Shown here in pieces: positions 44,615 through 47,972 of a DNA stretch of 64,000 nt (its first letter is position 1; each line of letters opens with the position of its first letter). The notes below the pieces were generated by a model. It did not search any database. It worked only from the letters and a program-made list of their open reading frames with translations, and was not told the origin of the DNA. The stretch is from Pycnococcus provasolii (taxonomy: Eukaryota > Chlorophyta > Pseudoscourfieldiophyceae > Pseudoscourfieldiales > Pycnococcaceae). The position numbers were made by a program, and so were the translations under genes. Where the stretch lies: NCBI GenBank assembly GCA_938743325.2, contig OW568871.1, positions 372,001 to 436,000 on the forward strand, written 5' to 3'.

Positions 44615-44746
44615 ATTTCAAAGAGAGCGAAGTGAAGAATGATTCCAGTGTGTGGCGAATGCGCGCATGGTGGCGGCGGCGCAAAGCGCGCGGTTACAAC
44701 GGCGACCGCACGTTTGTCGACCGACATATGATGACACCAACCCCCC

Positions 44747-44862
44747 GACCTAATTTCCCGACCAAAAACGCATTACAAATCATGTGATCATCATGTGAAC
44801 AATCCCCCGACCTAATTTCCCGACCAAAAAAGCTTACAAATCATGTGATCATGATGTGTTAT
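44747..44862. promoter_or_regulatory. 62-bp promoter repeat with paired CATGTG elements, unit B
   Basis: Two copies start at 44747 and 44809, each reading GACCTAATTTCCCGACCAAA then ATTACAAATCATGTGATCA or the close variant CTTACAAATCATGTGATCA. CATGTG pairs are at 44781/44792, and at 44842 with a degenerate partner at 44853, always 11 bp apart. A third, diverged copy is in the unit A promoter. The rest of 44615-44940 shows no gene. Confidence 0.65.
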
Positions 44863-44940: not shown

Positions 44941-47900
44941 TCATTGAATGATTCCTCTCCTCCAGCGGCTCATCGGAACGAACCAGTACGCCGTGCTGAT
45001 ATGCCAAAGCCATGCCTGTATTATTTAGTAGTGTTGTTAGGTTGTTAGTGATTGTTGTTCATCTGCCATGGATGGTTAGAGGTAGGCTTACCAGCCCCAG
45101 CATCTGTAGCCAAAGCACCGAGACATGCTGCAGCACAGTCGCGTTCTGATCCACACCAAGTGCTGCAAGAAACGTCGAGCCGTCCAAATCTGACAATGAC
45201 TGCCATGTGCCTTGAAGTTCCACAGAAACTTCAAAAGGAACGGGGCTATCTTTCAGTTCGTTTAAACACATGGCGCAAAACGCGTGATTGAATGGGCTGA
45301 GGTTGCGCAAAGCCAGAACGGCTGGGGGCATTGATGTTGGGTTGATCAAAAATCCACCAAGCAGAACTTCGAACAGCACCACAATCGAAGCCAGTAGCGT
45401 CGCTGTTCCGGCGCTGGGAGAGATTGACGCCAAGAACATTGCCTGGATTCCCATTGCGACAGAATACAGAATTCCAATCGCAACAAAAATTCCAAATCTT
45501 GGCAAGCTTTGGGCGTCAACGCCGCTGACGTTGAACCCAGCGAGACCCATCAGCGGATAAAAGATGATGGAGTAGAGTCCAGCTGGTATTGCCCTGAGGA
45601 GGAGGCAGTCCGCGACTGCGCGAGCAGTCACGAGAGGCGCAGCGCTGTATTCCAGATATATCAGCGCCAGTACGTCACGGTGCTTCATTGCGAACACATG
45701 GTCGATCGCGCTCAGCGAAGCAAATCCCCACAAACAAAGAAAGAAGAAAAATCCTCCCATTCTGTTTATGACGCCGGGCAAAGTGTTTGGTACGTTGCGA
45801 TAGAGTAACCCTAGCAGTAGACCTAACACGATTCCAAAAGCGAGGTGGCTGAGCAGCGCAGCAGGTCGTCGAAGCACACCCCTCATTTCACGCAGAAGAA
45901 GGGTTCGAACCGAATTATGGAACGGGCGATACTGCTCCATCCAGTTCAGGGCACGACGCGACGACGTTTGCGCAACTCGGTCAGGATATGATGATGCCAT
46001 GCCGTCATCCTCTTCTGCTTGTTTCACCACAGCGGCCTCAATCTGCGCACTCGTCAACTCCACAAGATAATCCGCGGTTGTCACAACAGAGTACTTGTCA
46101 AATCTCCTTGACTGCGCCGGACTGGTCGCCATCTTAACGGCGTCGCATAGCAACTCTGCCGACTCAGGGACACCTTTCCACGCGAGTTTACCCTGCAAAA
46201 TAAGCCACACATCGCCGAATTGCCGAAAAAGGCGATCAGAGGGTTGGTGCACGGACAGGGCAACAATGCGATCCTCCTCCTTGGCATACCTGCTGAGCAT
46301 GGTGACGATGTCCATCGCGGATGACGCATCAAGCCCTGAAGTTGGCTCATCCGCCAGAAGCACCAGCGGCGCGCCAACGATCGCACACGCGAGAGCGACG
46401 CGACGACGCTCCCCTCCACTTACGCCGCCGTCATCGCCCTCCCCGCTTCCCACGGGACGATCCCATAAGTGCTCGAGTAGGTGGACGTCACTGAGCGATT
46501 TTTGCACACGCTGCGCACGTGCCACCAGGGATAGAAGAGGCGACTGTAACGACGAATGCATGGCAACATTCTCTCGGGCCGTGAGCCGCTCGAATAGCAC
46601 CTCGCTCCCCTGATCCATGAAGCTTGTTGCAAACGTCAGCGAACGGGATGTCCAGGAAGTTGTCGGATTTTCTACAACGGGATCGTTGTTGTCGGTATCG
46701 TCGGCAGTGCCAAGCACGACCTCATTGTCCACCTTCACACATCCCGTGATGGCGACGGATGGGGGCATCGGAGCTCGCGCGATGGCTCGAAGGAGCATTG
46801 ATTTGCCTGCGCCACTCTGACCCATGATGGCGGTCATCCGTCCAGCACGCAATTCGCAGCTTGCGGCTACAAGAACACGATGGCGGCGTGACTGTCGTAG
46901 TTGTGGCGTCGTCTTCTCTGGGTGAATAGCATGATCCCCATCACCGTCTTCGGCGGTGTCGTTGCGAAGCACGAAGACTGACTTTTCACAGGAAGGGTCA
47001 GCGGGAGCTTCAGGATCGGCAGCAATTACCATCGTTGTTGGCGTATCGCTGCTATTGCTGTCATCGCGAAGGCAGTGGTCACGTATCATTGGTACACGTT
47101 CCAGCATGCGAGACGCGACATCTCCCAGCGCTGTTACCTGAATGTTCATTGTAAGTTTGCCCAGTCGCGCAGCGTCTGCTTCTTCTTTCTTCGAAGCAGC
47201 AGCTGCTGCACGTCTTGTGAAGAAATGCGAGATGAGCGCACGAAATGCAGTAAGAATGAGGGCAAGCACCGCGCTAGCCGCGATTGCCGCCACGGCGGCA
47301 CTTGGTGTGTATGCCGGCGCAAAAGCCTGGGGGACGGGCACATCCCCTCCTGCAGTTCCAAATAATCCGCCCGTCGACTGAGCGAGCGACGCCTGCACTG
47401 CCGCAGCCTTGTCTTCGGTATTTGGATTCTGGAAGCGGTCCCACGTTGCCAACGCACTGAGCGACGGTTCGTGTCCTGTCGGTCGTCCTGCGGTGGCATT
47501 GGCAGGGAAGGGACCATCAGGCAGGTAGGTGGGCGAGCACCGGGTAATCGAATCAAGGATGTCGTTGAGAGAGAAATCCTTCGCCGCGAGGCCAGGCAAC
47601 ACAGCCAGCACGCACGCCGCAGTCATTGAGTTCATTGGGTTCGGTGGGGAAAAATCAAAGCCTGGTGTGTATGGGCTCATTCCTGCCTCTGTTTTGTTTT
47701 AGTGTGTTCGGTTATTAGTGATTGTTGTTTATCCGCCACGAATGATTAGAGGTAGGCTTACCTGCAAATGGCACGTAAAGATCATCCAAGCACTTTTTGC
47801 ATGCGAGCTGCAGCTGCGACCCTGAGGGATATGTGACACCTTCCGTGACGTTCGGGATCACACCCACACTGCACGACGCCTGCGGATTGAAGCGCGCCCA

Positions 47901-47972
47901 TGACGCGGTGGACGTCACCTGCGTGTTGTTCAACGGGCAGCGGAATCCAGCGGCTGGCGGAGGAGACGCCAT
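44941..47972 (-). CDS. ABCG-family ABC transporter (plant ABCG24/28-like layout)
   Basis: Three exons (47972-47762, 47688-45092, 45015-44941) give 960 aa. Exon 1 encodes a Cys-containing lumenal N-terminus (MASPPPAAGFRCPLNN, CKKCLDDLYVPFA). A lone helix at about 185-230 (AAVAAIAASAVLALILTAFR) precedes the ABC domain: Walker A GQSGAGKS near 360, signature VSGGERRR, Walker B LVLLADEPTSGLD. Six C-terminal membrane helices follow. This order, N-terminal ectodomain, one helix, ABC, then TMD, matches plant ABCG24/28-type half transporters. Splicing of the last intron replaces a premature end with AWLWHISTAYWFVPM, completing the final helix. Both introns are nearly the same sequence. The substrate is unknown; its position beside the His-rich pair is suggestive only. 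Confidence 0.88.
45016..45091 (-). other. introner-type intron, copy 2 (76 bp)
   Basis: It starts GTAAGCCTACCTCTAACCAT and ends AATAATACAG, phase 0. CACTAAC is a good branch point. Over the first 58 bases it differs from the intron at 47689-47761 at about seven positions, mostly transitions. Confidence 0.88.
47689..47761 (-). other. introner-type intron, copy 1 (73 bp)
   Basis: It starts GTAAGCCTACCTCTAATCAT and ends AACAAAACAG, phase 1, with CACTAAT as branch-point candidate. Removing it joins exon 1 in frame to the 873-codon main exon. Confidence 0.88.

Follow-up and report, generated by a model that had tools for sequence, protein, structure and literature searches.

The source of new introns in genomes is an old question, and most of the known introner families resemble DNA transposons. 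The question is posed anew by a stretch of 64,000 nucleotides (hereafter the window) from the green alga Pycnococcus, a chlorophyte of the Pseudoscourfieldiales, in which a single ABCG transporter gene is interrupted by two similar introns. Did one of these introns give rise to the other, do both belong to a wider mobile family, and by which route were they inserted?

Two introns in an ABCG transporter gene

The preliminary description placed two GT-AG introns on the minus strand of the window, at 47761-47689 (73 nt) and 45091-45016 (76 nt), in phases 1 and 0, respectively. Both are present as described, and their joint removal yields a single 960-amino acid open reading frame (ORF) for an ABCG half-transporter, which starts at 47972 and whose stop codon ends at 44941. 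The gene is organised as follows:

47762..47972, minus strand: exon 1 of the ABCG gene, with the ATG at 47972 (spliced 960-aa ORF)
47689..47761, minus strand: intron 1, almost certainly an introner copy, 73 nt, phase 1, GTAAGC...AACAG; nearest relative (95 %) in RPA2 on C4
47714..47718, minus strand: putative branch-point motif CTAAT of intron 1, predicted from the consensus
45092..47688, minus strand: exon 2, coding for ABC_tran and ABC2_membrane (Pfam; spliced ORF)
45016..45091, minus strand: intron 2, almost certainly an introner copy, 76 nt, phase 0, GTAAGC...TACAG; nearest relative (75/76) in a PEP-synthase/PPDK-like gene on C5
45044..45048, minus strand: putative branch-point motif CTAAC of intron 2, predicted from the consensus
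44941..45015, minus strand: exon 3, comprising the final 24 codons and the stop codon (spliced ORF; ungapped against the intronless C32 paralogue)

The two introns share their first 16 bases, as described before, and differ at seven positions over the first 57 bases when counted by eye, in agreement with the approximately seven early differences originally noted. While their relatedness is real, the term 'near-identical' is too loose for a pair with 84 % identity over the whole length, each member of which has a far closer relative elsewhere. Intron 2 is 99 % identical (75/76 bases) to its counterpart in the PEP-synthase/PPDK-like gene and intron 1 is 95 % identical to that in RPA2, with the two window introns ranking only seventh and fifth to each other among 77 copies. 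As these closest relatives are found in unrelated genes, the pair arose through separate insertions. Copying of an intron within the same gene, which had been suggested as one possible origin, would fit the shared gene, the spacing of 2.6 kb and the 84 % identity, but it is at odds with the closer relatives in other genes and with the mutual ranks, and the exons surrounding the two introns are dissimilar by inspection. Intragenic duplication is therefore considered very improbable.

The spliced ABCG protein matches a paralogue on C32 at 47-54 % identity, in a single stop-free frame of 1345 amino acids that covers both junctions. At junction 1, the DNA of the C32 paralogue reads LWKPFAEAGIDPYT versus LYVPFAEAGMSPYT in the ABCG gene, while at junction 2 the C-terminus of the paralogue aligns without gaps. 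Judged by this alignment, the C32 paralogue is an uninterrupted version of the gene, and intron gain can be seen by way of this intron-free paralogue, at a level of identity too low for the insertions to be dated. The best protein match of exon 2 is the metagenome protein P0006 (869/873 residues identical), with the runner-up being only 30 % identical. P0006 terminates in LGLVSLPLTIHGR, which represents read-through into intron 2, and a second natural allele thus carries the same introner. A segment of approximately 50-60 bases (TCACATGATTTGTAA...TTTTTGGTCGGGAAATTAGGTCGGGGG) is tandemly doubled 3' of the ABCG gene, at 44740-44850 of the window.

Dispersal, anatomy and predicted splicing of the intron family

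The host assembly comprises 32.3 Mb in 46 contigs, while the published genome of P. provasolii NIES-2893 is reported as 22.7 Mb in 43 scaffolds, in a study that also includes 19 Gbp of RNA-seq (PMC8209157). The two are distinct assemblies and differ in size despite the Pol II subunit RPB2 being 100 % identical over 964 amino acids to a P. provasolii protein (P0126). Using the 76-nt intron as DNA query, 36 places could be identified in its own genome at E ≤ 1e-3, and 20 places were found with the 73-nt intron at E ≤ 0.1, both window copies being included in each case. A 24-nt 3' motif (≤3 mismatches) occurs at 78 genome sites, with none for the reversed-pattern control, while a 19-nt 5' motif gave 103 matches (control 11) and the 16-nt common start (≤2 mismatches) gave 76 (control 15). 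Dozens of further copies are thus evident from both DNA and motif searches, contradicting the possibility, allowed for in the preliminary description, that none exist. The exact 5' and 3' introner motifs had no match in the viral contigs scanned.

When merged, the matches listed represent 141 places, including 92 with support from DNA similarity or the 3' motif and 49 backed by the 5' motif alone. Among the former, 57 were examined, giving 54 retained copies and three exceptions, namely a tandem-duplicate introner (L040), a place with an atypical start that may be real (L093) and a motif without an intron (L083). Examination of 24 of the latter gave 21 retained copies, the three failures being telomere-like repeats. 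The copy set (n = 77) was drawn from these 81 examined of 141 listed places by dropping L040, L083, L093 and the telomere-like L065, L073 and L076, with two double loci each adding one copy; nine of 86 rows, which either gave another start for an intron already listed or matched spuriously, had been left out before the copies were counted. On this basis, the family is estimated to comprise about 90 copies with good support, and perhaps 130 overall. L039 and L040 (C8:529748 and 531358) lie in tandem repeats of a gene with identical introner placement, and were counted once. The internal telomere-like CCCTAA repeats of L065 (C2:667741) and L076 (C4:426964) lie on separate contigs in two segments that are nearly identical to each other, and are possibly part of a mobile or subtelomeric element.

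The copies are between 61 and 101 nt in length, with 58/77 falling between 70 and 80 nt, and are typically AT-rich, with a GTAAGTCTACC start, a CACTAAC region and a ...CAG end. Most begin with GTAAGT (67 copies), followed by GTAAGC (5), GTACGT (3) and GTATGT (2), while the ends comprise CAG (69), TAG (6) and AAG (2). A branch-point-like motif (CT[AG]A[CT]) occurs in 74/77 copies, the mean GC content is 38 % as opposed to 56 % in the flanks, and the middle segments are of at least two kinds. A consensus RNA structure was sought for the family and none was found. Similarity extends over the full length of the introns up to both splice boundaries across the 77 copies, and the differing flanks and protein families place them in several non-homologous positions beyond gene duplication. 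The nearest relative is at least 90 % identical for 21/77 copies, with unrelated flanks.

Resemblance of this kind could also stem from long and strongly constrained splice and branch signals, with no mobile family involved, and the most conserved columns do include the 5' splice site and the branch-point region. However, the similarity spans the whole intron, including two kinds of middle segment, with a median pairwise identity of 0.71 among the 77 copies compared to a median of 0.58 and a maximum of 0.67 when the interiors are shuffled and the ends kept (300 pairs), and introns in unrelated genes reach 95-99 % identity. Signal constraint is thus a most implausible explanation. The reading of both segments as recently gained introners, as first put forward, is instead backed by the dispersal in unrelated genes, the exact GT-AG ends, the restored frame, the intronless paralogue and the 75/76 copy, and their membership of an introner family can be regarded as nearly certain.

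The effect of intron removal on the host genes was assessed by scoring the coding frame of each flank separately, with codon statistics taken from the long ORFs of the window. The flanking frames agree after removal in 67/77 copies (P = 2e-22 against the expected one third), and in 39/39 where both flanks have a strong coding signal. Coding scores are higher in sense than in antisense in 67/77 copies, the unspliced frame is open in 5/77, and phases 0, 1 and 2 are represented by 20, 25 and 22 introners, respectively. Of the 77 copies, 65 combine agreeing frames with a spliced frame that is open; ten lack frame agreement and twelve fail in one or other respect. Hand reading assigned four of these twelve to the L028 and L069 double loci and four to positions near an ORF end (L001, L003, L044 and L074), while L051 is probably coding with an extra intron, L036 and L047 are tRNA-like and L082 is unexplained. 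The spliced RPA2 protein shows no gap at its junction when aligned, through GDKFSSRHGQKG, with a Pol I subunit of solved structure, and the PEP synthase junction is likewise ungapped through LYTDRAIRYRIDRGFEH in its own alignment. Furthermore, the best Pfam domain stretch spans the junction in eight of nine spliced proteins, picked for looking conserved (L043, also long and conserved-looking, was left out), the exception being a cryptochrome/photolyase.

These frames indicate that the introners are probably removed by splicing in the cell. As each sits between two bases of the host, without any detectable gain or loss, splicing would restore the host mRNA. It is thus very likely that the copies, as spliceosomal introns, make up a single introner family, which has spread through the Pycnococcus nuclear genome by seamless insertion and whose splicing would restore the mRNA.

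Insertion sites, tRNA-like loci and the route of spread

Target-site duplications (TSDs) were tested at k = 2, 3, 4, 5, 6 and 8 over 130 offset pairs each in the 77 copies and none stands out, the largest flank-match excess being 10 versus 4.7 expected (k = 2, best of 130 offset pairs), so that weak single-offset excesses exist. No terminal inverted repeats (TIRs) were found in the 77 copies, with the longest end-to-end complementary run having a median of 3 versus 4 in shuffled copies. Similarly, no AG|G protosplice site was found, AG preceding the intron in 4/77 copies against 5.1 expected. Insertion of the copies without sequence gain or loss is firmly indicated by these boundaries, and in view of the missing TSD, TIR and AG|G marks a seamless, possibly RNA-mediated spread is favoured over a classical DNA transposon. 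The insertion sites are non-random, with C/G at -1 in 59/77 and G at +1 in 42/77 copies, a bias which could reflect a preference at the DNA level.

By a simple ORF estimate 84.5 % of the window is coding, and under a null model of random insertion on both strands, with antisense copies purged, approximately 27 % of the copies would be expected outside genes. Hand reading placed no more than 3/77 there (P = 1.5e-7; 1.3e-3 with intergenic copies counted in one orientation), while an automatic count leaves at most 12/77 outside genes (P = 0.015; 0.58 under a milder model). The automatic count leaves a modest deficit of intergenic copies, or none under the milder model, and the argument for transcript targeting thus rests on the hand reading; targeting of transcripts is likely, although not settled.

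The copies are also clustered. Among the matches listed (137 places, i.e. the 141 minus six plus two doubles), eight pairs lie within 3 kb of each other versus 1.7 expected, one of the eight being a tandem gene duplicate. Four pairs, all on the same strand, lie within 150 nt versus 0.09 expected, and one of these four (on C12, outside the examined loci) has 5'-motif support only. In L028 (1414-1574) two introners flank a 15-nt micro-exon, and in L069 (minus strand, 2001-2158 of the reverse complement) two flank a 12-nt micro-exon. L008 (C11:266350-266538) contains two introners from separate subfamilies, both in phase 0 and separated by 108 nt within one gene; the locus lies on the contig of the window copies, approximately 150 kb away from them.

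Spread through RNA is thought the most likely route, with roughly even prospects of being correct; it was at first rated somewhat better than even, and the rating was lowered because the recount of the gene bias proved weaker. An excised intron would be reverse-spliced, in sense orientation, into another transcript, which would then be reverse-transcribed, and the cDNA of the intron-bearing transcript would recombine into the gene. Both insertions in tRNA-like loci, described below, are sense-oriented relative to the tRNA halves.

Alternatively, the introners may be non-autonomous DNA transposons that carry splice sites and are mobilised by a transposase encoded elsewhere. Most surveyed introner families have TSDs and/or TIRs (PMC9860276), and both the base preference at the insertion sites and the clustering (eight listed pairs within 3 kb versus 1.7) are in keeping with such elements. 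However, no TSD was evident at any of the offsets tested with k = 2-8, nor a TIR (median complementary end run of 3 versus 4 in shuffled copies), the empty sites in the C32 paralogue are precise, and no consensus structure is apparent, making a transposon of this kind a possible but rather unlikely vehicle. Another route would be the repair of double-strand breaks with captured intron RNA or cDNA, which would be seamless and transposase-free. Seamless insertion at varied sites without TSDs fits this route, and a model of this kind has been proposed for the fungal stwintrons (PMC12403724). Break capture nevertheless predicts both orientations and extragenic sites, while hand reading placed at most 3/77 copies outside protein genes, with the caveat that automatic scoring leaves up to 12/77 unplaced. 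Capture at breaks is accordingly deemed unlikely, and the RNA-mediated route is retained as the preferred reading.

Two of the introners interrupt tRNA-like loci. L036 (1446-1607; C7:375425-375586) resembles a permuted tRNA gene with the 3' half upstream and the B box ahead of the A box, and its introner lies in the acceptor stem, whose 5' strand it divides after GCGCCT. The acceptor pairs with TAGGCGT at 7/7 positions with the introner removed and 3/7 with it retained; the anticodon stem pairs at 5/5 positions, the anticodon is UAU (Ile) and base 37 is odd. L047 (1483-1662; C16:504165-504344) is likewise a permuted tRNA-like gene, with the introner in the T stem. Here the acceptor pairs across the permuted halves at 7/7 positions, the T stem forms 5/5 pairs whether the introner is retained or removed, as the first base of the intron is likewise a G, and the anticodon 3' strand is absent beside the T arm. 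No second copy of either locus was found by genome DNA search, ARAGORN calls no tRNA gene in either, and Rfam gave no tRNA match at E ≤ 10. With its halves rearranged, L047 receives four inconsistent ARAGORN calls (Phe, Tyr, Pyl and Trp) and L036 none among the arrangements run, while the minimum-energy fold of the rebuilt L036 is not a cloverleaf. ARAGORN and a permuted-order scan, applied to 102 records (338,280 bases, overlapping loci included), yielded nothing, under a rule blind to L036 and L047.

Among the 63 of 587 candidates scored with Rfam, at least 27 tRNAs were recognised. These include 24 on C45 and C46, which are presumably organellar, and three on C3 and C11, which are 133-136 nt long and the only ones outside C45 and C46 among the scored candidates. 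Strict A-box/B-box patterns gave no match in permuted order, and one each in normal order on C45 and C46. Permuted tRNA genes occur in Ostreococcus and Micromonas (PMC3978253), and nuclear tRNA genes may be widely disrupted, split or permuted in the host alga. The introns of L036 and L047 are 96 % identical to each other. The tRNA intron endonuclease is not expected to cut at insertions in the acceptor or T stem. It is conceivable, though doubtful, that introners also enter nuclear tRNA genes and that the spliceosome removes them from the tRNA precursors. If these two genes work, the spliceosome would process tRNA transcripts, and any transcript, beyond mRNA, could be a target of reverse splicing; some insertions of the recently active introner subfamily would then have been made by way of tRNA.

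Comparison with known introners

The Pycnococcus family, with about a hundred or more near-copies, provides a fresh example of a known route of intron gain. It combines a culturable green alga with clean boundaries, pairs of 99 % identity in unrelated genes, an empty paralogue and no mark of transposition, and these features make a seamless, possibly RNA-mediated route directly testable in Pycnococcus.

Gozashti et al. (2022; PMC9860276) described 27,563 introners in 548 families from 175 genomes. Like the Pycnococcus copies, these are similar introns in unrelated genes with the similarity reaching both splice boundaries, and they likewise occur in more than five copies, are AT-richer than the exons and leave the mRNA unchanged by splicing (PMC9860276). 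TSDs, TIRs or both are reported for 59.2 % of the families in which both could be judged (PMC9860276), in contrast to the Pycnococcus family, which shows neither. By their definition, the latter is a further introner family, of the type without TSDs or TIRs. In the literature searched, introners in Pycnococcus were not found reported, and the main text of PMC9860276, supplementary tables aside, makes no mention of the genus.

The introners of Micromonas (M. pusilla and M. commoda) also have a marine prasinophyte green alga as host, and families with TSDs or TIRs and families without them both occur in M. pusilla, while the ascomycetes are the outlier with neither TSDs nor TIRs (PMC9860276). 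The ascomycete introner-like elements resemble the Pycnococcus family in this respect and in their direct insertion, and their spread has been read by some as reverse splicing (PMC9860276). Their hosts are fungi, and shared ancestry with the Pycnococcus family is not claimed. Similarly, the stwintrons of the Hypoxylaceae and Xylariaceae are inserted seamlessly at varied sites without TSDs (PMC12403724). These are nested double introns, with one intron located in the donor of an external intron, and have terminal inverted repeats (PMC12403724), whereas each Pycnococcus copy is one GT-AG unit, 61-101 nt in length and without TIRs.
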